Shown here in pieces: positions 6,297 through 33,930 of a stretch of 64,000 nucleotides of DNA (position 1 is the first letter of the stretch; every line of letters begins with the position of its first letter). A program made the position numbers and the translations under genes. The notes under the pieces are model-generated. The model searched no databases. It was given only the letters and a program-made list of their open reading frames with translations, and was not told where the DNA came from. The stretch is from Sphingomonadales bacterium (GTDB lineage: Bacteria; Bacteroidota; Bacteroidia; Chitinophagales; Chitinophagaceae). The stretch is taken from assembly GCA_016872195.1 (NCBI GenBank), contig VHAT01000009.1, forward strand, positions 1 through 64,000, given 5' to 3'.

Positions 6297-6311
6297 TTGC
6301 TAATTTAGCAA
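6297..6311. repeat. 15-base palindrome upstream of radA
   Basis: TTGCTAA-T-TTAGCAA is a perfect inverted repeat around one base, about 65 bases before the radA start. The size and symmetry suit a dimeric regulator site; the regulator is unknown. Confidence 0.45.
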
Positions 6312-6334
6312 TAGAATTTAATGGGTTAGTAAGC

Positions 6335-6362
6335 AAAGGGTCAGTCGAAAGATTGGCCCTTT
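6335..6362 (+). promoter_or_regulatory. Hairpin just before the radA start
   Basis: AAAGGGTCA (6335-6343) pairs with TTGGCCCTTT (6353-6362) over 9 bp with one G-U pair and a 10-base loop. It ends 13 bases before the ATG, so it would lie in the radA leader or form the end of an upstream transcript. The bases after it (GTATTTTATAGAG) are only weakly T-rich. Confidence 0.45.
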
Positions 6363-6375
6363 GTATTTTATAGAG

Positions 6376-7761
6376 ATGAGTAAGACCAAGAGCAGTTTTT
6401 TTTGCCAGCAATGCGGACACGAGAGTGTAAAATGGATCGGGCAATGTCCGGGCTGCGGTGCATGGAACAGCTTTGTAGAAGAGCTGGTGCATAAGGATAA
6501 ATCAAAAGATTTTGTTGATTGGAAAGAGTTCGGTGGCGAGAAAAGAGCCGGGCGCACCATTACGATCGATGCGGTCAAGAGTAGCGAAGAAAAAAGGATC
6601 ATCACCCCCGATTCCGAACTCAATCGTGTATTGGGTGGCGGTATTGTACCGGGCAGTTTAGTATTAGTTGCCGGAGAGCCCGGTATCGGTAAATCAACTT
6701 TATTCTTGCAAAACGGTCTGGGGCTACACGACACGACCGTATTGTACATTAGTGGCGAAGAAAGCGAACAGCAGATCAAGATGCGTGCCGATCGGTTGCA
6801 AACAAAAAATCCTCTATTCTATTTGCTTACCGAGACCAATACCCAGATCATCTTTCAAGAAATAAAAAAGCTAAAGCCTCAACTGCTGATCGTAGACTCG
6901 ATCCAGACCCTGCAAACCCCGCATATCGATGCCTCTCCCGGATCGATATCGCAGATCCGAGAATGTGCAGCCGAATTTCAGCGCTTTGCCAAAGAGACCA
7001 ATACCCCCGTATTCATGATCGGGCATATTACGAAAGAAGGACAGATCGCAGGTCCCAAGATGCTGGAACATATGGTCGATACCGTGTTGCAGTTCGAGGG
7101 AGATCGCCATTATACATACCGCATCTTGCGTACCCTCAAAAATCGATTTGGCAGCACGGCCGAATTAGGGATATATGAAATGAATGATACCGGGATGAGG
7201 GCAGTGCTGAATCCTAGCGAACTACTACTCACGCAAAAAGACGAACAACTCAGTGGAATTGCCATTGCGGCCACCATGGAGGGGATGCGACCTTTGTTGA
7301 TAGAAGTGCAGGCCCTGGTTACACCTTCGGTCTATGGAACCCCGCAACGGACCGTCAGTGGGTTTGACCTGCGAAGACTGCAATTGCTCTTGGCCGTACT
7401 AGAGAAGAGAGGAGGATTTCAATTCGGGACCAAAGATGTGTTCTTGAATATTGCTGGTGGATTGAAAGTAGAGGATCCGTCTATCGATCTGGCGGTGCTT
7501 TGTGCACTACTCTCTTCTTATGAGGATGTAGCGCTCTCCCCACGACTTTGTTTTACAGGAGAAGTAGGCCTGAGTGGAGAAGTGCGTGCCGTCAATCGAA
7601 TCGATCAGCGTATTGCCGAAGCGGCCAAGCTGGGCTTTGAAAAAATTATCGTCTCGCGCTACAATCAAAAGGACAATAGCGCCAAAAAGAATACAAAAGA
7701 TCGGGGTATCGAGGTCGTGACCATGGCCCGGGTAGAAGATGTTTATCGCTATTTATTTTAA
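6376..7761 (+). CDS. radA: DNA repair protein RadA
   Basis: 461 residues from the ATG at 6376, which begins MSKTKSSFFCQQCG as RadA proteins do; a TTG 15 bases upstream is in frame but not needed. RadA is a RecA-related ATPase that drives branch migration in recombination. In order: a four-Cys zinc ribbon (CQQCG and CPGC, about residues 10-27), Walker A GEPGIGKST, the RadA-specific KNRFG motif, and a C-terminal Lon-protease-like domain. comF follows 24 bases later on the same strand. Confidence 0.97.
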   Translation: MSKTKSSFFCQQCGHESVKWIGQCPGCGAWNSFVEELVHKDKSKDFVDWKEFGGEKRAGRTITIDAVKSSEEKRIITPDSELNRVLGGGIVPGSLVLVAGEPGIGKSTLFLQNGLGLHDTTVLYISGEESEQQIKMRADRLQTKNPLFYLLTETNTQIIFQEIKKLKPQLLIVDSIQTLQTPHIDASPGSISQIRECAAEFQRFAKETNTPVFMIGHITKEGQIAGPKMLEHMVDTVLQFEGDRHYTYRILRTLKNRFGSTAELGIYEMNDTGMRAVLNPSELLLTQKDEQLSGIAIAATMEGMRPLLIEVQALVTPSVYGTPQRTVSGFDLRRLQLLLAVLEKRGGFQFGTKDVFLNIAGGLKVEDPSIDLAVLCALLSSYEDVALSPRLCFTGEVGLSGEVRAVNRIDQRIAEAAKLGFEKIIVSRYNQKDNSAKKNTKDRGIEVVTMARVEDVYRYLF

Positions 7762-16510: not shown

Positions 16511-16538
16511 AGAACCAGGCCGATCGAACTGAATCAAC

Positions 16539-17879
16539 TTAGTATCGCGCCCGCACTGCCAATAAAAATTTCTCTATTTTTCTCCGTATCTCGGTCGCAG
16601 TAGATTGATGGTTATTGACCAAGACCGAAAAGACCAGCCATTTTCCTTTGCGCGTCTGCAAAAACCCGCTAAGGGCTACCACGCCACTCAAGGTGCCGGT
16701 CTTAGCAAAGATGGCACTGCTATCTTTCACATAATAACCGCTCAAGGTACCTTCATTGCCACGCGGAAAGATCGTTTGGATCCGCTCCCAGCCAAATTCT
16801 CGCTGCATCCGATCCAATATACTGACCATGTCTTGTGGTGTAAACAGGTTATAGCGACTAAGCCCCGATCCATCTACCCAGCGAGGTGCTTGTGGCAAGT
16901 CAGCGAGATCGGTCGCTAAAACAGTATCGATAAGGGCACGATCGCTCATATACCCCAGCAGACGCTGGCTGACCATGAGCAAACTCTGCTCTGCAAAAAA
17001 GTTATCGCTACGGTGCATCAAGGGAGTCAATAAGGAGTCGGTCGGATGCGAATACAATGGTGTCCCCTCTACCGGTAAGCCACTTACACTCACGGAGGAA
17101 CGAAGCCCTAATTGCTGCAAGGTGTCTTGCAAGAAAATATAATTGGTTACACCCCGATTGGTCTTATAGGGAATTGCCGACTTGCCAAAGGTCTTATTAC
17201 CTCTTTTTATGGAAAATAGATTCTCATCTTGGCTGCGTGAAAGATCGAACTTACCCCCTGTACCCACCAGTTGTACGAGTGCTTCTTTCATAAAAGGGGG
17301 GCGCAAAGCCAACGAAGGAAGCGCTTCTAAGCGCTGATCGCGCGCTTGAAAATAAACCAGATTTCCGTAGACAGGAAAAGCGCTTCGCTCGGCGAGATAG
17401 GGTTCCTGAAAATCATCCCAAGACCACCCACTACCATAGGGCTCAACCCGATCACGAATAGAATAGCGTAAAGCAATATGCTTTTGGCCCTGTAGCATTC
17501 GTTGCAACAAAGGTTGCGTTACAAAGTCAGGATGTAAAAAAGTGGGATCCCCTTGCGGTTGTACATAGAGGGTGTCGTTTGTTTCTTGTAAGACAGCCCC
17601 CACAAGGCGATCTTCCAGGTATTTCATGGCCACATAGCAAGTGGGGATCTTGACATTGCTGGCCGGCACAAAATATTTATGCCCGTTTTGATTGTACCAA
17701 TAGGTCTGCGTAGAGAGTTCCATAATGCTGACACCCCAATGCGCATTGTCGAATGACTTAGCGCTTGCTATTTCTCGTTGAGCCAGCTGTTGCACCTGGC
17801 GTTGTAAACTACACGATGTTAAAGCAAAGAAGAACAGCCAAGAGAACTGTATACGATTTGACAAAAAAGAAAAATGCAT
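16539..17879 (-). CDS. dacB: D-alanyl-D-alanine carboxypeptidase/endopeptidase, PBP4 type
   Basis: 446 residues with a lipoprotein-like or signal-peptide N-terminus (hydrophobic to about 22, with Cys in LTSCS). It trims or cuts peptide cross-links of peptidoglycan in the periplasm. Penicillin-binding motifs are in order: SNVK (SxxK) in VPASNVKIPT, SDN in HRSDNFFAEQ, and KTG in FAKTGTLSG. The domain between the first two motifs is the insertion typical of class C PBP4 enzymes. It converges on mutL and is downstream of the arginase-like gene on the same strand. LTSC suggests a possible lipid anchor. Confidence 0.93.
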   Translation of the reverse strand: MHFSFLSNRIQFSWLFFFALTSCSLQRQVQQLAQREIASAKSFDNAHWGVSIMELSTQTYWYNQNGHKYFVPASNVKIPTCYVAMKYLEDRLVGAVLQETNDTLYVQPQGDPTFLHPDFVTQPLLQRMLQGQKHIALRYSIRDRVEPYGSGWSWDDFQEPYLAERSAFPVYGNLVYFQARDQRLEALPSLALRPPFMKEALVQLVGTGGKFDLSRSQDENLFSIKRGNKTFGKSAIPYKTNRGVTNYIFLQDTLQQLGLRSSVSVSGLPVEGTPLYSHPTDSLLTPLMHRSDNFFAEQSLLMVSQRLLGYMSDRALIDTVLATDLADLPQAPRWVDGSGLSRYNLFTPQDMVSILDRMQREFGWERIQTIFPRGNEGTLSGYYVKDSSAIFAKTGTLSGVVALSGFLQTRKGKWLVFSVLVNNHQSTATEIRRKIEKFLLAVRARY

Positions 17880-17903
17880 TGATTGATTTTTTTGTTGGTA
17901 CGA

Positions 17904-19040
17904 CTACCCTCTCTCTTGGGCGCGCAACCAACGCTCAGGGATCTCATTACTGCTGGCCAATAAATAGTCTTTATAGCTACAGGCGATAAACTGCTTGTTG
18001 GGCAATTGCATCCACCAGCGGCCGGTTTTTTTGCTTTGCAAAAAGATCGTCTCTACTTCGGCAAAGGCCATATAATACTCATTGAATGAATCTTTCTCTT
18101 GCAAGGAAGCTTCTCTGCGACCGCGGCTTCTACCGTCAAGTAAATACCAAAGCATTTGTGCGACCTGCTTGGCGCTAAGGTCTTGCCGATCGGCACGAGG
18201 ATCGTATCCGTATACCCCCACCGTATTGACCGTTGGACTCATGCCTGCATAGCGAAACAGGGTGCAGGCCTCCTCTCCCGTAAACCCATTGGGAGAAATA
18301 GTGCTGGCAGGAGAGTAGGCATTGGCCAACGAAGAAAGATCAAAACTGAATAGATGGCTGTTGCGAATAACCGGTTCCATTTCGTCGGGCGCTTCCTTTA
18401 CATTCCCAACCCGAAAGCAATCGAAGCGAAGCTTGTCGAGCGTTTCGAGTAATTGAGGATTGACACAATAGCTCTGAAACCCTATATGATTATAATGCCT
18501 TATAAAATTGGGCGTGGCCGTCAGCATATCCATCAAAAAATGATCAGCCGGTAAGATCGCCTCCGGATCCAGATCGATAAGAGCATCCACCAAGGTGGCC
18601 TCTATCAGTTGACGGCTGTGAACATACGCTTGGTACTGCGCCGTGGTCAGATCGTGAGAACCGCCTAAGATGATGACTGTTTTCCCTTCTCCGATCAACG
18701 CTGATACAACCGTACGCAAGGCAGCATAGGTATCAGGAAGTGTAGCACCGGTACGAATATTACCCACATCGGCCAGCACCAGATCGGAATGCCAGTAGAA
18801 TAAATTATAGAATTGACGTCGAATCGCATCCGGACCCATGGTTTGATGCTGCTCAATACCCGCTCCCCGATGATCGGGACATCCTACAATGACCAACTGA
18901 GTCTCATCCAAATCCGGAAGAGATTGCTCATGCAAATGAATACTGTACCCGATCTGCCCCTCTTTGTATCCCCGGTCTTGCGAGAGCATCGCCCTGTTGA
19001 CCGGGTCCAGGAAATCTTCAATACCAAGATGATCTGCCAT
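17904..19040 (-). CDS. Arginase/formimidoylglutamase family protein with degenerate metal site
   Basis: 378 residues. The ureohydrolase fold is recognisable from GCPDHRGAGI near residue 53, ILGGSHDLT (124-132), VDALIDLDPE and FSFDLSSL. True enzymes use six ligands for two manganese ions: GGxH, DAHxD and SxDxD. Here GGSHD keeps its His, but DAHxD reads DALID (His lost) and SxDxD reads SFDLS (second Asp lost), leaving four of six. Bacteroidota carry such divergent members, usually annotated as formimidoylglutamase; activity is doubtful. Divergent from pheS with 44 bases between starts. Confidence 0.85.
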   Translation of the reverse strand: MADHLGIEDFLDPVNRAMLSQDRGYKEGQIGYSIHLHEQSLPDLDETQLVIVGCPDHRGAGIEQHQTMGPDAIRRQFYNLFYWHSDLVLADVGNIRTGATLPDTYAALRTVVSALIGEGKTVIILGGSHDLTTAQYQAYVHSRQLIEATLVDALIDLDPEAILPADHFLMDMLTATPNFIRHYNHIGFQSYCVNPQLLETLDKLRFDCFRVGNVKEAPDEMEPVIRNSHLFSFDLSSLANAYSPASTISPNGFTGEEACTLFRYAGMSPTVNTVGVYGYDPRADRQDLSAKQVAQMLWYLLDGRSRGRREASLQEKDSFNEYYMAFAEVETIFLQSKKTGRWWMQLPNKQFIACSYKDYLLASSNEIPERWLRAQERG

Positions 19041-19072
19041 ACTTGCAAGATAATTAATTGCCGGTTTGGACT

Positions 19073-19080
19073 TACTTTTG
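19073..19080 (+). promoter_or_regulatory. -7 promoter element of pheS, four bases from the start codon
   Basis: TACTTTTG fits TAnnTTTG exactly. Only TCGT separates it from the pheS ATG, so the mRNA would start at or next to the AUG. No clear -33 box is visible. Confidence 0.45.
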
Positions 19081-19084
19081 TCGT

Positions 19085-20110
19085 ATGGAGAATCTATGGC
19101 AACAAATTGATGCCCTCCGCAGTGAGATCGGCAGCTTCGCCACCACCCGGGCCGACGAGGTAGAGGCTTTTCGGATCAAGTACCTGGGAACAAAAGGGGT
19201 GGTCAAGCAACTGATGACCGCCATGAAAGAGGTGCCTGTCGAAAAAAAGAAAGAAGCAGGGCAGTTGCTCAATGACTTCAAATCGTTCGTTACCGCCCAT
19301 TATGAGCAACTTCTGACAGGGATCATATCCGATAAAGATGCGTCCACTATCGATCTGAGTTTACCGGGACAACCCTTTCCGATCGGGTCGCGTCATCCAG
19401 TCACCTTAATGAAAAATCGCATCATCTCCATATTTCAGCGGCTGGGCTTTGCCGTAGCAGAAGGACCAGAGATCGAAGATGATTGGCACAATTTTGGCGC
19501 CCTCAATTTGCCGGCCCATCACCCGGCAAGGGATATGCAAGACACGTTTTACATTCAGCAAAATCCCGATTGGGTATTGCGCACGCATACCAGTAGTGTA
19601 CAGATACGCGAAATGGAAAAGGGCCAGCTACCCATTCGCATGCTGATGCCGGGCCGGGTCTTTCGTAACGAAACGGTCAGTGCCCGTAGCCATTGTTTCT
19701 TTCATCAGATAGAAGGATTGTATATAGATGAAAACGTCTCGTTTGCCGACCTGAAGCAAACACTTTACTTCTTTGTCAAGGAAATGTATGGGCCCAATGC
19801 CCAAGTTCGTTTTCGCCCCTCTTATTTTCCGTTCACCGAACCCAGTGCCGAAATGGATGTGAGCTGCTTTATTTGCGCCGGAAAAGGATGCACCGTATGT
19901 AAAAGATCGGGGTGGGTAGAAATATTGGGTTGTGGCATGGTGCATCCCAATGTATTGAGTAATTGCGGCATCGATCCTGAAAAATACAGCGGCTTTGCCT
20001 TTGGTATGGGGGTAGAAAGACCGGCAATGCTCAAATACGGTGTCAACGATCTACGCTTATTCAGTGAGAACGACATCCGCTTCTTACGACAATTTGCAGC
20101 AGCCACCTGA
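19085..20110 (+). CDS. pheS: Phenylalanine-tRNA ligase alpha subunit
   Basis: 341 residues from the ATG at 19085 (MENLWQQIDALRSEI), the normal PheS N-terminus. It charges tRNA-Phe as part of an alpha2-beta2 enzyme. An N-terminal coiled coil (about 1-85) for tRNA binding precedes the class II catalytic core: GPEIEDDWHNF, motif 2 RVFRNETVSARSHCFFHQIEG in abbreviated form RVFRNE...HQIEG, and motif 3 GFAFGMGVERPAML. The beta-subunit gene pheT is not next to it. A 3-hydroxyacyl-CoA dehydrogenase gene follows after 12 bases. Confidence 0.96.
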   Translation: MENLWQQIDALRSEIGSFATTRADEVEAFRIKYLGTKGVVKQLMTAMKEVPVEKKKEAGQLLNDFKSFVTAHYEQLLTGIISDKDASTIDLSLPGQPFPIGSRHPVTLMKNRIISIFQRLGFAVAEGPEIEDDWHNFGALNLPAHHPARDMQDTFYIQQNPDWVLRTHTSSVQIREMEKGQLPIRMLMPGRVFRNETVSARSHCFFHQIEGLYIDENVSFADLKQTLYFFVKEMYGPNAQVRFRPSYFPFTEPSAEMDVSCFICAGKGCTVCKRSGWVEILGCGMVHPNVLSNCGIDPEKYSGFAFGMGVERPAMLKYGVNDLRLFSENDIRFLRQFAAAT

Positions 20111-20122
20111 TAAGCTTCCCCT

Positions 20123-20977
20123 ATGGACATCAATACGATCGGAGTATGTGGCGCAGGTACGATGGGCAGAGGGATCGCCTTAACGGCTGCATTGGCCGGA
20201 TTCAATACAAGACTCTTTGATCTGCAGCCCGCCGCGTTAGAAAGGGCAAAAGAGCAACTACAAAAAGAGCTCAAGAAAAGTATCGAAAAAGGAAAATACA
20301 CCGAAGCCTTTGCCGCACAGGCCTTGGCGCGCATTGAATTTACCGAAGATATCGATGCTTGTGTAGGCGAGATCTTTATCGAGGCGATTGTGGAGCAAGC
20401 CGAACCCAAGATCGCCCTTTTCAATCAACTTGCTGAACGTAATCACAGTGATTGCATTTTTGCTAGCAATACCTCATCGCTCTCCATTACTGAAATGGCC
20501 AAGGCCATTCAACACCCCGAGCGTGTTATCGGCTTACATTTTTTTAACCCGGCCACCCTTATGAAACTGGTCGAGGTCGTTACCACTCCCTTTACCGCCC
20601 CTTCGGTACAAGAAATAGCCTGGAAACTGATGCAGGACTTTCAAAAGACCCCTGTGCTGTGTATCGATTCACCGGGATTTATCGTCAATCGGGTCGCCCG
20701 GCCTTTTTATATAGAATCACTTCGGCTGCTAGAAGAAAAAAAAGCCGGCATGCAACAGTTGGATCGCATCCTTACTGCAGCCGGATTTAAAATGGGACCC
20801 TTTGCCCTGATGGATCTGATCGGTAATGATATTAACTATGCCGTAAGCTGCTCGGTCTATGATCAACTCGGAAAACCAGAACGACTCCGACCTTCTTCGA
20901 TCCAGCAACAGCTGGTGCAAACAGGCAAATGGGGACAGAAATCCGGCGAGGGGTATTATCAATACAAATCAGGCTAA
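20123..20977 (+). CDS. 3-hydroxybutyryl-CoA dehydrogenase family protein
   Basis: 284 residues, standard for the single-domain enzyme. It oxidises 3-hydroxyacyl-CoA with NAD in fatty-acid or butanoate metabolism. The N-terminal Rossmann motif is GVCGAGTMGRGIA; the catalytic His lies in VIGLHFFNPATLMKLVEV and the C-terminal dimer domain has DSPGFIVNRVARPF. The stop codon overlaps the next ATG by one base (TAATG), so the pair is co-translated. Confidence 0.93.
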   Translation: MDINTIGVCGAGTMGRGIALTAALAGFNTRLFDLQPAALERAKEQLQKELKKSIEKGKYTEAFAAQALARIEFTEDIDACVGEIFIEAIVEQAEPKIALFNQLAERNHSDCIFASNTSSLSITEMAKAIQHPERVIGLHFFNPATLMKLVEVVTTPFTAPSVQEIAWKLMQDFQKTPVLCIDSPGFIVNRVARPFYIESLRLLEEKKAGMQQLDRILTAAGFKMGPFALMDLIGNDINYAVSCSVYDQLGKPERLRPSSIQQQLVQTGKWGQKSGEGYYQYKSG

Positions 20978-21990
20978 TGGCTAAAAAAGTATTAGTGACC
21001 GGGGCCAGTGGCTTTTTAGGTTCTTACTTGCTATTGGCCCTATTGAAGCAGGGCTATCAGGTAAGAGGCATGGTGCGTCAACAAAAAAGACCCACCTGGA
21101 TCGATCCGGCTGCACTCGAAGGAGTAGAGTGGTTCGAAGGCGATATACTGGATATTCTCTCACTCGAAGAAGCGATGGACGGCATGGATGCGGTTATTCA
21201 CTGTGCGGCCCTGGTTTCGTTTGCCCCCCAAGACCGTCAATTACTTTATCAGGTTAATACGAATGGGACCGCCAACGTGGTCAATGCGGCCCTCGAAAAA
21301 AAAATCAATCGACTGATACATATCAGTTCAGTCGCGGCACTCGGTCGGATAGCGGGGGGCGGCGTGGTCAATGAAAATGCCAAATGGAAAGAGGGCCCCT
21401 TACACACTCATTATGCACGCAGCAAATTTCAGGCAGAATTGCAGGCCTGGCGCGGTTTTGCGGAAGGACTCGATACGGTCATCCTGAATCCCAGCACCAT
21501 TTTAGGATATGGAAATTGGGAGCAAAGCAGCTGCGCCATCTTTAAGCAACTCTATGATGGGTTTCGCTGGTACACCAGTGGATTAAATGGATTTGTGGAT
21601 GTGCGTGATGTGGCTCGCGCCGCCGTGATGCTCTTAGAGAAAGCAACGGGGGGACAACGTTATATTGTAAACGGTGATAATTGGACCTTTCAGCAACTGC
21701 AGTTTTGCATTGCCGATGGATTCAATCGTAAAAGACCCTCCGCAAGGGCCCATGGCCTTTTATTAGGTCTTGCCTGGCGGATAGAGGCCATACGGTCTTT
21801 CTTAACGGGTAAGCGTCCTTTACTGACACGCGAAAGCGCAAGAGTGGCTCGCAGTGCCACCCGCTTCGATAACAGTAAATTACTAAACGACTTTTCAGCA
21901 TTTTCGTATACCCCGCTGCAACAGACCATACAAGAGGCCTGCAGACAATATGCTGAGCGAGCGTCTTATTTAGCGGAAGCTACACCCTGA
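20977..21990 (+). CDS. NAD-dependent epimerase/dehydratase (dihydroflavonol reductase-like)
   Basis: 337 residues from the ATG at 20977, one base overlapping the previous stop. An extended short-chain dehydrogenase: nucleotide motif VTGASGFLGSYL at the start and the catalytic Tyr-Lys pair in HTHYARSKFQAE (YxxxK). The substrate is unknown; similar proteins reduce ketones or aldehydes on sterol-like or flavonoid-like molecules. The overlap with the 3-hydroxyacyl-CoA dehydrogenase gene suggests a shared pathway, but I cannot name it. Convergent with the LpxD-like gene. Confidence 0.9.
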   Translation: MAKKVLVTGASGFLGSYLLLALLKQGYQVRGMVRQQKRPTWIDPAALEGVEWFEGDILDILSLEEAMDGMDAVIHCAALVSFAPQDRQLLYQVNTNGTANVVNAALEKKINRLIHISSVAALGRIAGGGVVNENAKWKEGPLHTHYARSKFQAELQAWRGFAEGLDTVILNPSTILGYGNWEQSSCAIFKQLYDGFRWYTSGLNGFVDVRDVARAAVMLLEKATGGQRYIVNGDNWTFQQLQFCIADGFNRKRPSARAHGLLLGLAWRIEAIRSFLTGKRPLLTRESARVARSATRFDNSKLLNDFSAFSYTPLQQTIQEACRQYAERASYLAEATP

Positions 21991-22027
21991 CCAACGACTT
22001 TATCTGATCACCGAAAATGTTCTCTGC

Positions 22028-22978
22028 TCAGCGAAAACTTGTTTTTAGCTTTTCCCAAATCTGGGGAATCCGCTTAACCCAAACCAACTCTTTTTTCTTC
22101 TCTTGGAAATCTATGGCAGGGGTACCCCAATAGGTCTTGTTCCCCGATATGGTGCTAGCCACTCCGCTTTGCCCCATTACGACCGCGCCTTTACCTATGG
22201 TCAGGGTCTTGTTAACGCCCACTTGTCCCCACAGCACGGCCTCGTCTTCGAGTACGACTGCGCCGGCAAGTCCCACTTGAGCCGCTATTAGACAATTACG
22301 TCCTATCACACAATCATGTCCAATATGCACCTGGTTATCGATCTTGGTTCCGGCTCCTATCGAGGTATCGGCGGTTACCCCTCGATCGATCGTACAGCCC
22401 GCCCCGATCTCTACCTGATCGGCAATAACAACACGTCCGCAACTTTTCATCTTGCGATACTGGACCGGAAGCGCTTTCTTTCGATTGTAATAAAAAGCAT
22501 CACTGCCAATAACGGTGCCAGCCTGTACGATCACGTCATCACCGAGTTGACAATGATCCAGAATGGTCACCTGAGGATGAATCAGGCAATTCTTTCCGAT
22601 CGTCACTTGGTTGCCGATATAGGCGCCCGGCATCACGATTGTATTGCTTCCAATAACGGCCGTTTCACTAATGGGTTGCAATGAGGGAACAAATGGACGA
22701 TAGGTGTCAACGATACGGAGATAAGCCGCGAACGGATCACTGACCACCAAGAGTGATTTACCGGGTGGAACGGCTATCTGCTGATCGATGATGATACAGG
22801 ATGCAGCAGAGCGAATGCATTTATCATAATATTTGGGATGGTCCACAAAAACCAAATCTCCCACTTGTACTTTATGAATTTCATTGATACCCGTAACGCT
22901 ACCGGTTGCATCTCCAACAAGAGTAGCCTGTATTAATTCGGCCAATGATGTAAGTGAAACCGGCTTTTCAAATTGCAT
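22028..22978 (-). CDS. LpxD-like UDP-3-O-acylglucosamine N-acyltransferase
   Basis: 316 residues. LpxD adds the N-linked hydroxy fatty acid in lipid A synthesis. The N-terminal domain (about 1-95) resembles the LpxD uridine-binding part; the rest is a left-handed beta-helix of hexapeptide repeats. NQVHIGHDCVIGRNCLIAAQ aligns with the catalytic His segment of LpxD. It stands alone, not with lpxC, lpxA or fabZ, so it may be a second LpxD-type enzyme with another acceptor. TACCTTTG on the minus strand supplies a -7 element. Confidence 0.85.
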   Translation of the reverse strand: MQFEKPVSLTSLAELIQATLVGDATGSVTGINEIHKVQVGDLVFVDHPKYYDKCIRSAASCIIIDQQIAVPPGKSLLVVSDPFAAYLRIVDTYRPFVPSLQPISETAVIGSNTIVMPGAYIGNQVTIGKNCLIHPQVTILDHCQLGDDVIVQAGTVIGSDAFYYNRKKALPVQYRKMKSCGRVVIADQVEIGAGCTIDRGVTADTSIGAGTKIDNQVHIGHDCVIGRNCLIAAQVGLAGAVVLEDEAVLWGQVGVNKTLTIGKGAVVMGQSGVASTISGNKTYWGTPAIDFQEKKKELVWVKRIPQIWEKLKTSFR

Positions 22979-22994
22979 GATGTACTATTTTTCA

Positions 22995-23002
22995 CAAAGG
23001 TA
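22995..23002 (-). promoter_or_regulatory. -7 promoter element of the LpxD-like gene
   Basis: On the minus strand the bases read TACCTTTG, a full match to TAnnTTTG, 16 bases before the ATG. Confidence 0.45.
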
Positions 23003-23044
23003 GTAGGCGTAATGTCACCTTTGCTTTTTTGCGTTTATCCACAA

Positions 23045-23060
23045 AACATTTTAAAATGTT
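23045..23060. repeat. 16-base perfect palindrome upstream of the candidate small RNA
   Basis: AACATTTTAAAATGTT is fully self-complementary. It lies about 25 bases before the TTTG box of the small-RNA promoter and 43 bases behind the LpxD-like -7 element, a position suited to a regulator of either transcript. Confidence 0.5.
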
Positions 23061-23083
23061 GATAATTCAAAACAAAAAAATTT

Positions 23084-23113
23084 TTTGGATATTTAAAATA
23101 AATACTAATATTG
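23084..23113 (+). promoter_or_regulatory. Promoter of the candidate small RNA
   Basis: TTTG (23084-23087), 18 bases, then TAATATTG (23106-23113), which matches TAnnTTTG with one mismatch. The layout fits the Bacteroidota -33/-7 promoter. Confidence 0.5.
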
Positions 23114-23117
23114 TGTA

Positions 23118-23187
23118 GGGAAATTTATTTCCCAGTACTTACTAACCCATCCATATAGGATCCCTCCGTTTTCGGAGGGATTTTTTG
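23118..23187 (+). ncRNA. Candidate small RNA of about 70 nt ending in a strong terminator
   Basis: A promoter-like pair is followed by hairpin GGGAAA-TTTA-TTTCCC (23118-23133), a 26-base single-stranded linker, and a 9-bp terminator hairpin (23160-23181, stem ATCCCTCCG with CGGAGGGAT, loop TTTT) with a run of T. No gene lies on the plus strand before it, so the terminator needs its own transcript. It could instead be a leader that attenuates yicC, whose ATG is 62 bases further on; however TACCTTTA at 23225 may be a separate yicC promoter. Confidence 0.5.
23160..23186 (+). terminator. Strong rho-independent terminator upstream of yicC
   Basis: A 9-bp GC-rich stem with a TTTT loop (23160-23181) followed directly by six T (23181-23186). 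It is the best terminator in the window. Confidence 0.85.
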
Positions 23188-23248
23188 TTTGCATACGGCT
23201 CTCCCTTCACATGCGCTTTTAAAATACCTTTACGCAAAGTTCATCCCT

Positions 23249-24124
23249 ATGATCAAATCAATGACCGGCTTTGGAAGAGCCGAAATGCGGGCGGGAGAAA
23301 AATTATTTGTGATCGATATCAAATCGCTCAATGGAAAGCAATTCGATCTGCAACTACGACTGCCTGCCTTGCTTAAGCCTTACGAATTCGATATTCGTCG
23401 TTGGCTGGCCACGGAGCTCGATCGCGGGACGGTCGACTGTAGCATCAGTCTAAAAGAGACCGGCGGGTCGCAACCCGTATCCATCAATACGCAACTGGCT
23501 AAAGCCTACTACGGATCATTGTCCAAACTGGCCTCCGAATTGCAACTCGACACCTCACAATTGCTGACGGCCCTTTTAAAATTGCCCGAGGTCATTACCA
23601 CCGGGGCCGATGTCCTGCAAGCTGAAGAATGGGAGCAGTGTAAAACAGGCATTGCGCAAGCTGTCAAGCAGCTCAATATGCATCGCGAAACAGAGGGAAA
23701 AGCGCTGGAAACCGATCTGCGAAACCGCATCCATACGATCGTGTCGTTGCAAAAGGAGATCAGCCAGCTCGATCCGCTGCGACGAGTGAAACTACGGCAG
23801 GGTATCACCAAAGTGCTGGAAGAAAGCCTGAGAGGCGAAGGATACGATCAAACCCGGCTGGAACAAGAGCTGATTTACTACATAGAGAAAATGGATATCA
23901 GCGAAGAGCAGGTGCGACTACTAAATCACTGCGACTATTTTATACAGCAACTCGACGAAAAGAACGAGAGTAAAGGCAAAAAACTCTCCTTTATCTTACA
24001 GGAGATCGGACGGGAGATCAATACGACAGGCTCAAAGGCCTATGATGCCTCCATACAACGGCTGGTGGTCCAGATGAAGGATGAGCTCGAAAAAGCCAAA
24101 GAGCAAATCTTAAATGTGATGTAA
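23249..24124 (+). CDS. yicC: YicC/YloC family endoribonuclease
   Basis: 291 residues from the ATG at 23249, which starts the conserved MIKSMTGFGRAE; an upstream in-frame start would add 20 non-conserved residues. The family cuts RNA, in E. coli including the small RNA RyhB. N-terminal YicC domain (about 1-155) and the C-terminal DUF1732 part with GKKLSFILQEIGREINTTGSK are both present. In many bacteria yicC is followed by gmk; here gmk is 25 kb away and gldH comes next after 9 bases. Confidence 0.94.
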   Translation: MIKSMTGFGRAEMRAGEKLFVIDIKSLNGKQFDLQLRLPALLKPYEFDIRRWLATELDRGTVDCSISLKETGGSQPVSINTQLAKAYYGSLSKLASELQLDTSQLLTALLKLPEVITTGADVLQAEEWEQCKTGIAQAVKQLNMHRETEGKALETDLRNRIHTIVSLQKEISQLDPLRRVKLRQGITKVLEESLRGEGYDQTRLEQELIYYIEKMDISEEQVRLLNHCDYFIQQLDEKNESKGKKLSFILQEIGREINTTGSKAYDASIQRLVVQMKDELEKAKEQILNVM

Positions 24125-24133
24125 TTTTATAGT

Positions 24134-24631
24134 ATGCCAAATGCGAATCGCTGGTCATTACCAACCCTGATCCTATGTGGACTGCTTGGTGCCCTTAGCG
24201 GGTGTACGTCGTTGGAATTATACGAACGAACGGTCCCCCTACCAGCCCAGCAATGGAAAAGTGAATACACCCCTTCCTTTGACTTTGATATTGCCGATAC
24301 CACCGCCCGCTACGACGTGGCCCTGGTATTACGCCATAGGGATCGTTATCACTATAACAATATCTGGTTGCAGCTCTCCCTTACCGACCCGCAAGGAGAA
24401 AGCTACTCCTTTGAAACCGACTTTGTATTAGGCACCAATGAAACCGGCTGGCTAGGAGCCGGAATGGACGATATTTACGAGCACCGCATTTCGCTGCAAA
24501 AAGAGCTGGTGGCACAGGGGATTTCTTTTCGGCAGGCCGGCACTTACCGCTTTCGTATAAAACAACTGATGCGCGAAGATCCACTAGAGGAAGTCATGAA
24601 TATCGGCATACGAATAGAAAAGAAACCCTGA
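24134..24631 (+). CDS. gldH: Gliding motility lipoprotein GldH
   Basis: 165 residues. A lipoprotein signal peptide ends in LSGC (Cys24). GldH is required for gliding in Flavobacterium and for stability of the motility apparatus. Family marks include ERTVPLPAQQW, ALVLRHRDRYHYNNIWLQ and the C-terminal GWLGAGMDDIYEHRI, which I recognise as GldH hallmarks. It lies 9 bases after yicC and 10 before the histidine kinase gene, so the four genes yicC-gldH-HK-RR look like one transcription unit. Confidence 0.9.
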   Translation: MPNANRWSLPTLILCGLLGALSGCTSLELYERTVPLPAQQWKSEYTPSFDFDIADTTARYDVALVLRHRDRYHYNNIWLQLSLTDPQGESYSFETDFVLGTNETGWLGAGMDDIYEHRISLQKELVAQGISFRQAGTYRFRIKQLMREDPLEEVMNIGIRIEKKP

Positions 24632-24641
24632 CCCTTCGCTT

Positions 24642-25631
24642 ATGCCAGATGTCATCAAAAAAAAATGGAGACGTACTACCCTTATCTATTGGGCGTTGCT
24701 GTTGTATGTGCTGGCAGCCCTGTTGTGGTGGCTGATCTCCTTGCAGCAGCAAAACCGACAGATCACCCAAGAGAAGATCGAATCGCTGGAGTGGCGATCA
24801 ACTACGCTCAGCCCACAAACTCGTTCGGCCATGCGTCAGGAGATCGAAAATGTATTTGAAAGGAATCAGAATAAATATATCAGCGAAGGAATTACTTTTT
24901 TATTGGTCATCATGATCGGGGCCGTATTTATTTATAGGGCCGTGGGTCGACAATTCAAGATGCAATTACAACAGCAACATTTTATGATGGCTGTTACGCA
25001 CGAACTTAAGACCCCCATTGCCGTAGCCAAGCTAAATCTGGAGACCCTTCAGAAATACCAATTGGAGCCCGATAAACAACAGAAGCTGATCCGTACAACG
25101 CTGGACGAAACGGCCCGTCTGGATTTTCTGACCAACAATATCTTAGTGTCGGCCCAATTGGACAATAAAGGATTCGTCAGCAGCAAAGAAGAGCTAGACT
25201 TCTCTTCGTTGCTACAAGCATGCATTGCTGCTATTCAAAAAAGGTTCCCGGATAGGATCATCGAGACCTCTATCGAAGAAGAGATAGACCTGAGAGGCGA
25301 TGCCCTTCTTTTGCAGATCCTGATCAATAACCTACTGGAAAATGCCATTAAATATGCCCCGGGCAGCTCCCCGATCAAAACGGTATTGGATCGTAACGAA
25401 AAGGAGATCGTGCTGACCGTGGCCGATCAGGGTCCGGGCATCCCTGATAGCGAAAAAGGAAAGGTCTTTGATCGATTCTACCGAATCGGGAATGAACAAA
25501 TGCGAACGACCAAGGGCACCGGACTGGGTCTTTACCTCTGCCAGCGGATCGCCAAAGACCATGGGGGTCGCATCGAGATAAAAGATAACCATCCGAGCGG
25601 CAGTGTTTTCAATGTTATCTTTGCCGCATGA
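24642..25631 (+). CDS. Membrane sensor histidine kinase
   Basis: 329 residues. Two membrane helices (about 14-34 and 83-101) enclose a short periplasmic loop of roughly 48 residues; there is no clear HAMP domain. The dimerisation helix carries the phospho-accepting His120 in MMAVTHELKTPIAV. The ATPase domain has NNLLENAIKYAP (N box), VADQGPGIPD (G1) and GTGLGLYLC (G2). The small sensor loop suggests it senses membrane or protein signals. Its stop overlaps the response regulator start (ATGA). The stimulus is not shown by the sequence. Confidence 0.94.
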   Translation: MPDVIKKKWRRTTLIYWALLLYVLAALLWWLISLQQQNRQITQEKIESLEWRSTTLSPQTRSAMRQEIENVFERNQNKYISEGITFLLVIMIGAVFIYRAVGRQFKMQLQQQHFMMAVTHELKTPIAVAKLNLETLQKYQLEPDKQQKLIRTTLDETARLDFLTNNILVSAQLDNKGFVSSKEELDFSSLLQACIAAIQKRFPDRIIETSIEEEIDLRGDALLLQILINNLLENAIKYAPGSSPIKTVLDRNEKEIVLTVADQGPGIPDSEKGKVFDRFYRIGNEQMRTTKGTGLGLYLCQRIAKDHGGRIEIKDNHPSGSVFNVIFAA

Positions 25632-26335
25632 GCGAAGAGAAACCATCCTCCATTTTGTTGGTCGAAGACGAAGAGAACCTGCACGAAGCACTCAAACTCA
25701 ACTTAGAGCTCGAAGGGTACGAGGTAACATCTGCTTTTGACGGGGCCGCTGCCTTAAAAGCCATTGACGAGGCCTATTTCGATCTGATCATTTTAGATGT
25801 AATGCTGCCCGTTGTGGATGGCATACAAGTAGCCGAGACCATCCGCATAAGCAATAACGATACCCCTATTTTGATGCTGAGTGCCCGCAATAGTAGTGCC
25901 GACCGTGTTGCCGGGCTCAAAAAGGGGGCAGATGACTACCTGACCAAGCCCTTTAATTTGGAGGAGTTGCTGCTACGCGTCTCTAAACTGATCAATAAAA
26001 ATTTAAAGCTACAAGACAGGTCGACCGTTAGCGATCTATATCAATTTGGGGCCAATCAGATCGATTTTAAAGCACAAGAGGCCACCGGATTTGATGGGAC
26101 CACCATTCGGCTGAGCAAAAAAGAGACGATGCTCTTGAAGCTGCTGATCGAAAATAAAAATGAAGTGGTGCCCCGCGAAAAGATATTACAAGCGGTGTGG
26201 GGCTATCAGGTCTATCCTACGACCCGCACCATCGATAATTTTATCCTGAACTTTCGAAAATATTTCGAAGAGGACTCTCGTAATCCCCGCTACTTTCACT
26301 CGGTACGAGGAGTCGGTTATAAATACGCCGAATAA
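25628..26335 (+). CDS. OmpR/PhoB-type response regulator
   Basis: 235 residues, overlapping the kinase gene by four bases. The receiver domain has the acidic pair E13/D14, phospho-acceptor Asp57 in LILDVMLP, and the conserved Lys in DYLTKPFN. The C-terminal winged-helix DNA-binding domain (about 135-235) has ENKNEVVPREKILQAVWG and RTIDNFILNFRKYFE. It is the cognate regulator of the preceding kinase. Targets are unknown; gldH and yicC upstream are candidates by position only. Confidence 0.95.
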   Translation: MSEEKPSSILLVEDEENLHEALKLNLELEGYEVTSAFDGAAALKAIDEAYFDLIILDVMLPVVDGIQVAETIRISNNDTPILMLSARNSSADRVAGLKKGADDYLTKPFNLEELLLRVSKLINKNLKLQDRSTVSDLYQFGANQIDFKAQEATGFDGTTIRLSKKETMLLKLLIENKNEVVPREKILQAVWGYQVYPTTRTIDNFILNFRKYFEEDSRNPRYFHSVRGVGYKYAE

Positions 26336-26336
26336 T

Positions 26337-27077
26337 TTAAAGATCGCCCAACCGCGGACGCATCACGATCTCCTCTACACAAGCTTGCGGAGATAAGTGA
26401 GCGGTCTGAAAGACCATCTTGGCTACATCGGATGGCTCCATGATTCGACCATTGCTGTTGTCGAAATTGCCCCAACTATCGGTAAGAACGGCCCCAGGAT
26501 AAACCCCCGTTACTTTAACACCGGTTGGCTTAAGCTCTTCGCGCAAATTTTGGGTAAATCCATGCAAGGCATATTTACTAATGCTGTATGAACCTCCTTG
26601 TACATAGGGCTTCAGCGAAGCGATGGAGCAGATGGTAAAGATGTGCCCACTGCCACGCTGTATCATATCGGGTAGTAGTGTACGCGTCAAATGGTAGGCG
26701 CTGTATAGATTCACGGCCATTTGCTGCTCTAATTGGCCAGATGGCTCCTCGGCCAGTGAGCCCGGTAAGAACTGACCGGCATTATTGATGAGAATATCTG
26801 GCTCCCCATAACTCAAACACCAACGTCCAAAGTCGATCGCCTCTTGAGCAATACGCAGATCAGCGGCGCGGCCATGGATTACAGCTTCGGGACAGGCGGC
26901 CGCTAATTCCTCCACTGTCTTTTGTAAGCGCGTCGGATCGCTGGCTGTAAGCAACAACCGATACCCAGCCTTAGCAAATAACCACGCGATCTCTTTACCG
27001 ATACCTCGTGATCCTCCGGTTACGATCACGGTCAAGGCATTGGCAGAACGAGGAGAAGTTGAAGCATCCATACTCAT
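26337..27077 (-). CDS. Short-chain dehydrogenase/reductase
   Basis: 246 residues from the ATG at 27077; ATG at 27068 is an alternative. The classical SDR pattern is present: VTGGSRGIGKEIA cofactor loop, NNAG, and the catalytic Ser, Tyr, Lys in CSIASLKPYVQGGSYSISK. The substrate is unknown. Convergent with the response regulator gene and divergent from the YjjG gene; TAACTTTG on the minus strand gives its -7 element. Confidence 0.92.
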   Translation of the reverse strand: MSMDASTSPRSANALTVIVTGGSRGIGKEIAWLFAKAGYRLLLTASDPTRLQKTVEELAAACPEAVIHGRAADLRIAQEAIDFGRWCLSYGEPDILINNAGQFLPGSLAEEPSGQLEQQMAVNLYSAYHLTRTLLPDMIQRGSGHIFTICSIASLKPYVQGGSYSISKYALHGFTQNLREELKPTGVKVTGVYPGAVLTDSWGNFDNSNGRIMEPSDVAKMVFQTAHLSPQACVEEIVMRPRLGDL

Positions 27078-27095
27078 CAATTAAATTGTACATTG

Positions 27096-27103
27096 CAAAG
27101 TTA
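27096..27103 (-). promoter_or_regulatory. -7 promoter element of the SDR gene
   Basis: The minus strand reads TAACTTTG, an exact TAnnTTTG match, 18 bases before the ATG, with CTTG about 18 bases further upstream as a weak -33 box. Confidence 0.45.
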
Positions 27104-27130
27104 TTGACCTCTTCTTACAATCAAGATACT

Positions 27131-27853
27131 TTGTTATCCGCACTTCGCTATCAGCACCTTTTTTTTGATCTGGATCACACCTTGTGGGATTTTGAAGCCA
27201 ACGCACGGGCAACCCTGGCACAACTCTACACCGAACTAGATCTGAACAGATTAGGAATAGATGATTTTGAGCGTTTTTACCGACAATATCTAGAGCACAA
27301 CGAAAAATTATGGGATCGTTACCGAAAGGGCTTTATCAAACAAGAAGAGCTCCGTATCAAACGTATGCGACTGGCCTTACTCGATTTTGGGGTCGTTAAC
27401 GAAGAGGTGGCCGCTAACATGAATATCCGCTTTTTGGATCTCTTGCCCACCCGAACGATCTTATTTCCATATACAAAAGAACTACTTGACTACCTATTGC
27501 AAAAAGGGTATCAGTTGCATCTGATCACTAATGGCTTTGAAAAAACACAGCATAGTAAACTGCTTTACTCGGGATTAGCCCCCTATTTTACAGCCGTCAT
27601 TACCTCGGAAGGATCGGGTAGTCTAAAACCGAAGCCTGAGATCTTTTCGTATGCCCTTGAACAAACTAGAGCTACTAAAGAGAATAGTATCATGATCGGG
27701 GATACGCCCGAAGTAGATATCTGGGGCGCCAAGAATGCCGGTATCGATCAGATTCATGTCAATCACCTCAGCCAAGAGCGCATAGCCTTATCCGATGGAA
27801 GCTATCCGACCCATACGGTTTATTCTTTGCAAGAGATTATGCAGATACTCTAG
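27131..27853 (+). CDS. YjjG-type HAD pyrimidine nucleotidase
   Basis: 240 residues from a TTG start at 27131; there is no ATG near the conserved N-terminus RYQHLFFDLDHTLWDFEANAR, so a non-ATG start is required. HAD phosphatase motifs: DLDHT (nucleophile Asp), LITNGFEKTQ (motif II with conserved Thr), the motif III Lys in SGSLKPKPEIF, and MIGDTPEVDIWGAKNAG (motif IV). YjjG enzymes remove phosphate from non-canonical pyrimidine nucleotides. Divergent from the SDR gene. Confidence 0.88.
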   Translation: MLSALRYQHLFFDLDHTLWDFEANARATLAQLYTELDLNRLGIDDFERFYRQYLEHNEKLWDRYRKGFIKQEELRIKRMRLALLDFGVVNEEVAANMNIRFLDLLPTRTILFPYTKELLDYLLQKGYQLHLITNGFEKTQHSKLLYSGLAPYFTAVITSEGSGSLKPKPEIFSYALEQTRATKENSIMIGDTPEVDIWGAKNAGIDQIHVNHLSQERIALSDGSYPTHTVYSLQEIMQIL

Positions 27854-27909
27854 GATTAGGTCAATGCGCTAAGAACGTGCCATAGTAAGTACGCTAAATA
27901 AGAGTCGCA

Positions 27910-28566
27910 TTACCAGGTGGCAATTTCGGTAACGCCTCCCAACGGACGGTCTCCGATCTTGACCTTAATAACAGCATCGAGCGGAAGCAAGAGATCGACC
28001 CTAGAGCCGAACTTGATAAATCCCATTTCGGCGTTTTGTTGCACGGTCTGCCCCGGCTGCAGGTAATTGACAATGCGACGGGCTAAGGCGCCGGCGATCT
28101 GCTTTACTAAAATTTCGCGACCATTCTTTTGATAGACCACCGAGTGGCGTTCATTTTCGGTAGAGGACTTTGGATGCCAGGCCACTAAATACTTACCGGG
28201 ATGATAAGTAGAATAGACCACGGTGCCGCTTATGGGATTACGATTTACATGCACATTGAAAGGGCTCATGAAGATAGAGACCTGAATGCGACGATCGTTG
28301 AAATATTCATCGGGTTCTACTTCTTCGATCACCACCACTTCACCATCGGCGGGGGCGATGATGCTATTTTCCGATTGAGTATGAATACGAGAGGGGACTC
28401 GAAAAAAAGAAAGAATAAACCCCCAGAAAAGAACCGATATAAGTAAGATCGAGATAAAGACCACCCCATACGACGCAGACAAAAAATAATAACTGGCCGT
28501 ATTACCCAGCCCCAAAAAAAGGGTTACGATAGCAATGGTAGGGTAGCCTTCGCGGTGAATAGTCAT
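27910..28566 (-). CDS. psd: Phosphatidylserine decarboxylase
   Basis: 218 residues, the short form common in Bacteroidota and archaea. It makes phosphatidylethanolamine from phosphatidylserine after cleaving itself to create a pyruvoyl group. The cleavage site is the Gly-Ser in MGFIKFGSRVDLLLP near residue 185; the segment IFMSPFNVHVNRNP carries the conserved FxVHxxR motif. Two helices (about 9-25 and 32-52) anchor it. It lies 45 bases after cdsA on the same strand, giving two steps of phospholipid synthesis together. Confidence 0.95.
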   Translation of the reverse strand: MTIHREGYPTIAIVTLFLGLGNTASYYFLSASYGVVFISILLISVLFWGFILSFFRVPSRIHTQSENSIIAPADGEVVVIEEVEPDEYFNDRRIQVSIFMSPFNVHVNRNPISGTVVYSTYHPGKYLVAWHPKSSTENERHSVVYQKNGREILVKQIAGALARRIVNYLQPGQTVQQNAEMGFIKFGSRVDLLLPLDAVIKVKIGDRPLGGVTEIATW

Positions 28567-28611
28567 GAAGTAAAAAATTAAAGGGGCAAAGATAATGATT
28601 GCCCTCGCTGC

Positions 28612-29313
28612 TTACAGAAAGAGTCTGGCATAAAGCCAGACCACCGGAGTGGCCCAGAGCAACGAGTCGAAGCGATCGAGCCATCCACCATGTCCGGGCA
28701 AAATACGGCCACTGTCTTTAACCCCTGCCATGCGCTTTAACTTCGACTCAAAGAGATCGCCGGCCGTACCCATCACCGCAGCGCCAAAAGCCATCAGGTA
28801 ACTATCTAGTGTTCTCAACGGCATGATAGCGTCAACAGAGAGCAAAGAAGACACAATAGCAGGCAATGTATAGCCTGCGACCAGCACCGTGAGTACGACA
28901 CCGCCTATGGTGCCCTCCCAGGTCTTTTTTGGAGATACCGGACTCAGCGGTGTGCGCCCTATGAGCGAGCCGACCATATAAGCCATCGTATCATTGATCC
29001 ACATACAGGCCAATACGAACAAGGGCAGCACCGGCCACGATGTGGACATGACCGCTGCCAGCGGGTCATGCAATTTCGAATCGATAAATAAAGTCCAGGA
29101 AAGCGACAAATAGAAAAACCCAAGCAGCATATACCGAACGGGAAAGCGGAAAGCAGAATACAGTTGCTCGTATTCTACCCAGCATCCAGCATGGATAACC
29201 AAGACCAACAGTAAAAAACTCCAGTTGCTCCAACAAAGGCCAGCCAGCATCACCGCTACAAAAAAAACGGAGGTAACTGCCCGTTGCGAAAAAACCTGCC
29301 GGTTAAATGCCAT
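28612..29313 (-). CDS. cdsA: Phosphatidate cytidylyltransferase
   Basis: 233 residues with about six membrane segments, somewhat shorter than the E. coli enzyme. It makes CDP-diacylglycerol, precursor of all phospholipids. The family signature is complete: KRMAGVKDSGRILPGHGGWL with DRFDSLL following, which holds metal-binding Asp residues. Upstream motif SPKKTWEGTIGG is also typical. psd is next downstream and a CPBP protease gene is upstream by 8 bases. Confidence 0.95.
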   Translation of the reverse strand: MAFNRQVFSQRAVTSVFFVAVMLAGLCWSNWSFLLLVLVIHAGCWVEYEQLYSAFRFPVRYMLLGFFYLSLSWTLFIDSKLHDPLAAVMSTSWPVLPLFVLACMWINDTMAYMVGSLIGRTPLSPVSPKKTWEGTIGGVVLTVLVAGYTLPAIVSSLLSVDAIMPLRTLDSYLMAFGAAVMGTAGDLFESKLKRMAGVKDSGRILPGHGGWLDRFDSLLWATPVVWLYARLFL

Positions 29314-29321
29314 TAGTCAAA

Positions 29322-30320: not shown

Positions 30321-30346
30321 TGAACAAATTTAGGTAAAACACCAAG

Positions 30347-33438: not shown

Positions 33439-33476
33439 AGCAGAAATTTTGTGACAAGTTAGTAAAACGATAGAGG

Positions 33477-33914
33477 ATGGATGATGTTCATTTCATGAAG
33501 CAAGCCTTACAAGAGGCCCAAAGGGCCATGGAAGAAGAGGAAGTGCCCGTAGGGGCCGTGGTGGTAATGAATGGAAAGATCATTGCCCGGGGGCATAATA
33601 TGACCGAAAAACTGCAGGACCCCACTGCACATGCCGAAATGATCGCGCTTACCGCTGCTTTTAATGCCCTTGGAAGCAAATACTTGCCCGATGCGACCCT
33701 ATATGTAACCTTGGAGCCCTGCCCCATGTGTGCCGGGGCGCTCTATTGGAGTAAGATCGGACGCATTGTATATGGGGCCGAGGATGTTAAAAATGGATAT
33801 AAAAAAGTGGCAGGCGATCGCTGGCCCTTTCATAAGAGCACAACCCTGACAACAGGATGCTGCGCCGAAGAAGGGAGCCAACTCATGAAGGATTTCTTTC
33901 AACAAAAACGCTGA
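33477..33914 (+). CDS. tadA: tRNA-specific adenosine deaminase TadA
   Basis: 145 residues. It converts adenosine 34 of tRNA-Arg to inosine. The zinc deaminase motifs are HAEMIAL (His ligand and catalytic Glu) and [10 protein letters not shown] (two Cys ligands). The N-terminus [22 protein letters not shown] is typical of TadA; a guanine deaminase role is less likely. Followed by sodA after 47 bases, which has its own promoter element. Confidence 0.93.
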
Positions 33915-33930
33915 GCTGCCCGCTGCACAG

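Follow-up and report, generated by a model that had tools for sequence, protein, structure and literature searches.

Does the otherwise empty space between two divergent genes of a Chitinophagaceae contig hold an independent small RNA, and if it does, what could such an RNA pair with? The locus lies in a window of 64,000 nucleotides, by which we mean the whole stretch of DNA that was analysed, and it is flanked by an lpxD-like acyltransferase gene and by yicC (Table 1). An earlier note on this DNA had proposed a promoter-like pair of boxes, a first hairpin, a linker and a strong terminator at 23084-23187, and all of these elements are present as described. We call the predicted RNA that they delimit RNA A. 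From its conservation in relatives we find it very likely that the flagged spot is a real small RNA, common to nearly all the genomes of the family that we examined. Moreover, we consider it probable that RNA A is a trans-acting small RNA of the Chitinophagaceae that pairs with a second RNA, RNA B, and with the 3′ ends of recA.

Table 1. Coordinates of the features discussed (positions in the window, except for the last three lines, which refer to viral contigs).
Feature	Position	Strand	Basis
-7-like box TAATTTAG of RNA B	6301..6308	+	resemblance only
RNA B, predicted short RNA and apparent radA leader, with motif complement and terminator	6313..6369	+	model R2
AUGGGUUAGUAAG, exact complement of the RNA A motif	6321..6333	+	sequence
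Terminator hairpin and T-run of RNA B	6333..6369	+	fold, covariation
radA (sms), DNA repair protein RadA	6376..7761	+	TIGR00416, E 3e-174
lpxD-like acyltransferase gene, divergent neighbour	22028..22978	-	PF04613, TIGR01853
DnaA-box-like site 1, TTATCCACA	23035..23043	+	conserved pair, 13-bp spacing
DnaA-box-like site 2, TTATCAACA, inverted	23057..23065	-	conserved pair
-33 promoter element TTTG of RNA A	23084..23087	+	sequence; conserved position across loci
-7 promoter element TAATATTG of RNA A	23106..23113	+	invariant in 32 rows of alignment A1
RNA A, predicted small RNA of about 70 nt	23118..23187	+	promoter/terminator anatomy, model R1, covariation
5′ hairpin of RNA A, GGGAAA-UUUA-UUUCCC	23118..23133	+	covariation
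Pairing motif CUUACUAACCCAU of RNA A, nearly invariant	23138..23150	+	conservation
Intrinsic terminator of RNA A (hairpin 23158-23185, T-run to 23187)	23158..23187	+	terminator scan, covariation
yicC, downstream neighbour	23249..24124	+	PF03755/PF08340, TIGR00255
B-type element, viral contig L426	8880-8940		
B-type element, viral contig L509	3127-3190		
B-type element, viral contig L507	2070-2130		

In the window, the -33 element and the -7 box of RNA A are 18 bp apart, and the linker between the 5′ hairpin and the terminator measures about 24 nt, where 26 bases had been claimed. The terminator had been called the best of the window; it has the longest stem among the 27 sites of a scan of 19 kb (15000-34000), and the claim stands for the stretch scanned. 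The strand from 23115 to 23188 has a predicted folding energy of -26.2 kcal/mol (z = -4.15) that beats all 200 shuffles. No Rfam family reaches its gathering score anywhere in the 64 kb window, and the best sub-threshold match is Phe_leader, at 26.1 bits versus a gathering score of 55.

Most of our locus counts are based on 144 dereplicated RNA A loci. Excluded from the counts are two chance matches in coding DNA (L149, L170), loci more than 90% identical to another, loci with too short a flank, and two true RNA A loci (L302, L303) whose deviant motif is missed by the regular expression. The -33 position reads TTTG in 73 of the 144 loci and either TTTG or TTTT in 122, and the gap from the -7 box to the start of the hairpin, as counted from the sequence, is 4 nt in 127. 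The -7 box differs by one letter from the sigma-A consensus TAnnTTTG quoted in an excerpt of a study of Flavobacterium psychrophilum (PMC9723704), and the same excerpt places the sigma-A box at -12 to -5, from which the predicted +1 of RNA A would be 23118, the first G of the hairpin. As predicted from these boxes, RNA A has its own promoter, as an independent small RNA gene should.

How widely is this element conserved? We take the family to be the Chitinophagaceae, assigned by its named members. The earlier note had called for a covariance search in Chitinophagaceae relatives, and the search came out in favour of an RNA: a covariance model (R1) finds RNA A in 85 of the 85 family genomes of our order sample, with one strong copy each and a weakest E-value of 8.9e-6, and both stems covary. 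Presence in all 85 genomes is conservation far above chance. In the 213 remaining genomes of the order sample the best R1 E-value is 8.6e-4, and the best outside the family in a phylum sample of 395 genomes is 5.2e-4; the motif is absent from the 15 outside-family loci of the phylum sample that we inspected, 14 of which were at the R1 match. By these matches RNA A is restricted to its family, with no convincing match beyond it in the samples. There are exceptions among the family genomes beyond the 85. G046 (99% complete) and G735 (79%) have no RNA A, G736 (99% complete) has a doubtful match with an E-value of 0.043, and G004 has a short BLAST match only.

Other ways of searching agree with the model. 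In most genomes of the family, BLAST places the element next to an lpxD-like gene, which lies upstream and divergent in 128 of the 144 loci. A pattern scan of named genomes gives at least 80 loci, in Chitinophaga, Niabella, Niastella, Sediminibacterium, Ferruginibacter and others, and among the pattern matches listed 78 of 80 fit model R1. The exact 13-mer CTTACTAACCCAT is found in 78 of 83 dereplicated RNA A loci that had been collected by BLAST or by the model and then filtered.

In terms of structure, we observe double changes at all 15 pairs of RNA A in 92 distinct sequences. The alignment was fitted with the model and hence favours the structure, and in it 96.6% of the cells are paired, compared with 68.7% in shuffles and with 30-67% in versions of the alignment that were slid. 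The 5′ hairpin contributes 6 of 6 pairs with double changes (94.7% of cells paired), and the terminator 9 of 9 (97.9%). The terminator sequence varies freely among the loci and the linker core does not. A predicted terminator of its own, with a covarying stem, is the other feature that RNA A shares with independent small RNA genes, and the proposal of an independent small RNA gains support from the conservation in the 85 genomes, from the covarying stems and from the gene order.

A hairpin is present 5′ of the motif in 134 of the 144 loci. One lineage is missing it (L136, L162, L178, L293, L294, L296, L299, L301), and there, as judged by eye, the motif is spanned by an AGGAU/AUCCU stem and becomes its loop; L059 likewise has no 5′ hairpin. 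In predicted folds, at least 11 of the 13 nucleotides of the motif are unpaired in 89 of the 144 RNA A loci and in 27 of 32 RNA B leaders.

The candidate partners of RNA A come from following its motif across genomes. The motif 13-mer occurs in 56 of 60 genera of the family, at two places in 32 of them, at three or four in 17 and at one in 7, and a control with the reversed 13-mer gives 10 hits across all 60 genomes. One site per genome is normally RNA A itself. We chose and fetched 40 other sites from 32 genomes. At 31 of the 40, by eye, the complement AUGGGUUAGUAAG lies in the sense direction 5′ of radA and is followed by a terminator. This radA-leader complement is present in 31 of the 32 fetched genomes, one per genome. 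The surrounding letters were not selected for by the search, and GAATTTA before the complement is identical in 32 of 32 rows; the TA that follows it is nearly invariant in the same 32 rows. We call this element RNA B. Both sequence elements, their conservation and their complementarity are direct observations. A conserved complement is thus found in other transcripts, namely the predicted radA leaders and the recA 3′ sites described below, which is what one looks for in a trans-acting small RNA.

Model R2 finds RNA B in 80 of the 85 family genomes at E-values up to 5e-6, and in 82 at E-values up to 0.1. The three genomes with no R2 match (G235, G304, G266) all keep RNA A, as do G741 (86% complete) and G030 (72%), which have RNA A and no RNA B among 20 further genomes that we chose, one of which, G059, is from another family. 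G046 and G735 have neither. The terminator of RNA B has 38 cells with double changes versus 13.7 in shuffles, while for further pair types 51 of 500 shuffles reach the observed number, so that, as aligned, it covaries by most measures. The RNA B element of the window (6313-6369) has no Rfam match.

In the window, 6 nt separate the end of RNA B from the start codon of radA; in L369 it is about 25 nt. With no apparent room for another radA promoter in either, radA would be read through RNA B, which would make RNA B also a leader. Where RNA B is close to radA, it seems from this arrangement to be the radA leader. The element does not need radA nearby to be kept: in G230 and G332 motif and terminator are kept without radA within about 1.5 kb, and in G042 radA is about 1.4 kb away.

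The nine fetched sites that are not at radA include three that are 3′ of recA (L383, L388, L392) and one, in L361, that is 3′ of a gene for an HTH-Peptidase_S24 (LexA-like) regulator; at three others (L357, L370, L372) there is nothing clear. The search with RNA B added two more sites: one at the recA of G332 (L415) and, in G197 (L409), which is of another genus than L361, a complement with one mismatch 3′ of an HTH and Peptidase_S24 gene. A recA 3′ site is present in 5 of the 5 recA loci that we could examine; it has 0-2 mismatches in 15 and lies within 250 nt of the gene. Four of the five loci were found via the motif or the RNA B model and none is the recA of the window's genome. The fifth, L287, came from the stretches used for GC skew, unselected by motif or model, and it carries the site. 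The site of L383 is separated from recA by 236 nt and, apparently, by an earlier terminator. As a control, the best of 78 viral recA loci has 3 mismatches.

When RNA A changes, do its partners follow? In genus g63, RNA A reads CUUACUAACACAU, a change that is matched by the UGUGUUAGUAAG of one member, G332, at its recA site. The RNA B of g63 has an A-A mismatch with RNA A. In G230, of the same genus, the 12-mer exact to the changed RNA A occurs only in RNA A and in one place without a terminator, and recA was not located. Elsewhere, pairing is kept by wobble in G054 and G306, an A-G mismatch is found in G310, and there is one mismatch in G042. Sites with one mismatch show, by eye, no clear excess family-wide over the reversed control.

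The predicted cofold of RNA A and RNA B has an energy of -66.6 kcal/mol, compared with -48.5 kcal/mol for the two RNAs apart, and keeps all hairpins. When the 4264 tiles of the window are ordered by duplex energy, RNA B takes the 7th place, and somewhere in the window its energy is attained by 3 of 8 shuffled linkers. Duplex energy in the window is thus uninformative, and the case for pairing rests on conservation. A search of the RNA's own genome for 20-nt complements with at most 3 mismatches returns RNA A itself only; RNA B is seen only with the 13-mer. We found no other conserved targets of RNA A. Base pairing is the best explanation that we have for the strict conservation of the motif.

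We infer the transcription of RNA A and RNA B, their pairing in the cell and its outcome from sequence, and the mechanism that we propose is as follows. RNA A would be transcribed independently, with the 5′ hairpin and the terminator framing the single-stranded motif GUACUUACUAACCCAU. Over 13-16 nt, this motif would pair with two kinds of partner: the short, terminated RNA B that precedes radA, and the similar site that lies 3′ of recA just before a terminator. Such pairing would require no hairpin to unfold in either RNA. As for the outcome, our first choice is post-transcriptional control, in which RNA A would mask or remove the radA leader and the recA 3′ end, and the B-type RNAs would in turn titrate RNA A.

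That last step could also be the whole story. RNA B and the recA 3′ sites may be decoys that sequester or destroy RNA A, the real mRNA targets of RNA A may use a shorter seed, and phages may carry RNA B to disarm RNA A. We give this alternative not quite an even chance. It would account well for the RNA B elements that keep motif and terminator without an adjacent radA (G230, G332, G042), for the extra B-type sites 3′ of recA and of the HTH-S24 regulator, and for the viral sequences. The sequence TTTAATGGGTTAGTAAG is present in 6 contigs classed as viral by IMG/VR. In two of them, L507 and L509, which are identical around the site, our script finds a terminator behind it; in L426, which encodes terminase subunits, the terminator is found by eye and not by the script; and the other three have TTTAATGGGTTAGTAAG without a terminator behind it. 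At the 34 other places where viral contigs carry the motif, the same script finds no terminator. As read from these sequences, at least two kinds of viral contig carry B-type elements that are not accompanied by radA, and some phages seem to copy one arm of the RNA circuit. The pattern of RNA A itself has no match in the viral contigs. On the other hand, where it ends 6 nt (the window) or about 25 nt (L369) before the start of radA, RNA B would also be a leader, and no other conserved targets came up for RNA A to act on. The position of RNA B near radA, as its apparent leader, favours control of radA by RNA A, while for an RNA B that stands alone, behind recA or on a viral contig, a sponge of RNA A is the simpler reading. 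Control of radA by RNA A and a sponge role of RNA B may both hold.

A different outcome of the same pairing, which we think unlikely, is attenuation. By pairing with the radA leader beside its terminator, while the leader is still being made, RNA A would set the amount of read-through; it could either mask an AUG-GGU-UAG mini-ORF or prevent an antiterminator helix from forming. The site is indeed directly 5′ of the terminator stem in 31 radA leaders, and in several genomes the leader terminator closely precedes radA. But pairing the GGGUUAG of the motif elsewhere in the leader has a median cost of 8 kcal/mol (minimum 2), so that an antiterminator of the pT181 type is disfavoured by folding energy, and the recA sites are 3′ of their gene, where this mechanism cannot work.

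It is also conceivable that RNA A mainly binds a protein via its invariant linker, and that the complement to RNA B is secondary. A linker core this conserved could equally be a protein site, and in the second lineage the core forms, by eye, the loop of an AGGAU/AUCCU stem. This reading leaves unexplained the exact complements before radA and after recA, as well as the matched change in G332, and we regard it as quite improbable.

Could the DNA be conserved here, and not the RNA? Upstream of RNA A there is a conserved inverted pair of sites, TTWTCCACA-N13-TGTGNATAA, assigned by a consensus that we take to be that of the DnaA box. In the 144 loci we count 244 TTWTNMACA sites versus 15.6 expected from shuffles, a count inflated by related loci, and at least one such site is present in 143 of the 144. 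The spacing between the two sites is 13 bp in 100 of 125 loci, and the distance from the second site to the -7 box is 49 bp in 97 of 137, both figures being inflated by kinship. The distance to lpxD ranges between 96 and 1056 bp. Because the geometry of the boxes is fixed relative to the promoter of RNA A while the distance to lpxD varies, the sites appear tied to RNA A. Going by their resemblance and position, these are DnaA-box-like sites at a fixed place, as expected of a DnaA-regulated promoter, and having two of them at its promoter suggests that RNA A may follow the replication state. In the window, the pair (23035-23065) measures 22 bp from centre to centre. Other matches to the DnaA-box pair occur.

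These paired sites, with their excess over shuffles and their preferred spacing, are also what speaks for the region between lpxD and RNA A as a replication origin or another DnaA-binding DNA site, together with a GC skew that switches some 157 kb (G342), some 160 kb (G212) or 300-450 kb (G161) from the locus, in genomes of 3.1-3.7 Mb. Yet the cumulative skew minimum of G342 is 157 kb off, within the 400 kb read, the sign of the skew is unchanged at the locus in G212 and G161, and an RNA is indicated by the stems, which covary, and by the terminator. Skew in these three genomes rules out a replication origin at the locus, and the reading of the region as a DNA site is in our view very improbable. 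In G045 the skew is too noisy to place the switch. The earlier note had also proposed that a 16-base palindrome just upstream (23050-23065) regulates the unit. It is present in 1 of the 144 loci, which rules it out as an operator and marks it as incidental, a chance spacer sequence in the genome of the window.

That RNA A is a leader or attenuator of yicC, the other option that had been offered, is scarcely credible, since a same-strand yicC is 3′ of RNA A in just 91 of the 144 loci, the window included, and the 53 others keep RNA A with yicC not found in the downstream flank examined (at least 1.4 kb of it in 49), a gene order that rules out such a leader as the general function. YicC acts on RyhB, and a functional tie between RNA A and YicC had been suggested on such grounds; we found nothing to support it.

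Taken together, the complementarity of the motif suggests that an RNA circuit, so far unrecognised, operates around DNA recombination. A bolder version, which we regard as doubtful, would be a circuit common to the family and made up of RNA A, RNA B and the 3′ end of recA. It would link recombination (radA and recA, with an S24-type LexA-like repressor in some places) to replication via the DnaA boxes, with the B-type decoys of phages switching RNA A off during infection.

To our knowledge, few of the small RNAs with defined partners come from bacteria other than Proteobacteria and Firmicutes. In the open-licence part of PubMed Central we found no small RNA of Chitinophagaceae, the papers being on Flavobacterium and Bacteroides only, and nothing that describes the pair of RNA A and RNA B. 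The closest analogy may be with GcvB, reportedly a trans-encoded base-pairing small RNA, and AgvB, said to be its phage-borne anti-sRNA or sponge partner. As in that type of system, we have here a short independent RNA, a terminator, a complement that could titrate it and a phage copy of the partner, and in the predicted folds of 89 of the 144 loci the seed is exposed. The differences are that RNA A and its partner are both conserved across one Bacteroidota family, that the complement is of 13-16 nt and nearly invariant, and that the partners are at radA and recA. SroC is a sponge RNA derived from a 3′-UTR, and the recA sites resemble this type in having the complement 3′ of a gene and just before the terminator, whereas the element of RNA B is also a radA leader and on viral contigs, and is known here from sequence alone. 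In countertranscript-driven attenuation of the pT181 type, the countertranscripts are cis-encoded. RNA A is similar in being complementary to a leader near its terminator, but it is trans-encoded, and the antiterminator helix is energetically disfavoured here.

Two further systems are compared by excerpts of their descriptions. Rfp18 of Flavobacterium psychrophilum is described in part of PMC9723704 as widely conserved in its genus, with a third stem-loop predicted to pair with protease mRNAs. Like RNA A, it is by that account a conserved Bacteroidota small RNA with a strong predicted structure and predicted mRNA pairing; by the same description, RNA A differs from it in having two hairpins and in being confined, as far as the phylum sample shows, to its family. 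In SymR/SymE, an antisense RNA is tied to an SOS-related gene (PMC1891008, in excerpt). SymR is there cis-encoded opposite its target, whereas RNA A is encoded elsewhere on the chromosome.

What makes RNA A worth pursuing is that it occurs in nearly all family genomes examined, with a near-invariant core and candidate partners at two central recombination genes. If true, an RNA circuit of radA and recA with viral copies of one arm would be an unfamiliar layer in the control of DNA repair, and also in the conflict between phage and host.

Finally, in two genera we observe an element with the opposite orientation of the motif. Behind one shared gene in L374 and L378 (~1200) there is a motif in the sense of RNA A followed by a terminator, and this element is possibly a mimic of RNA A.
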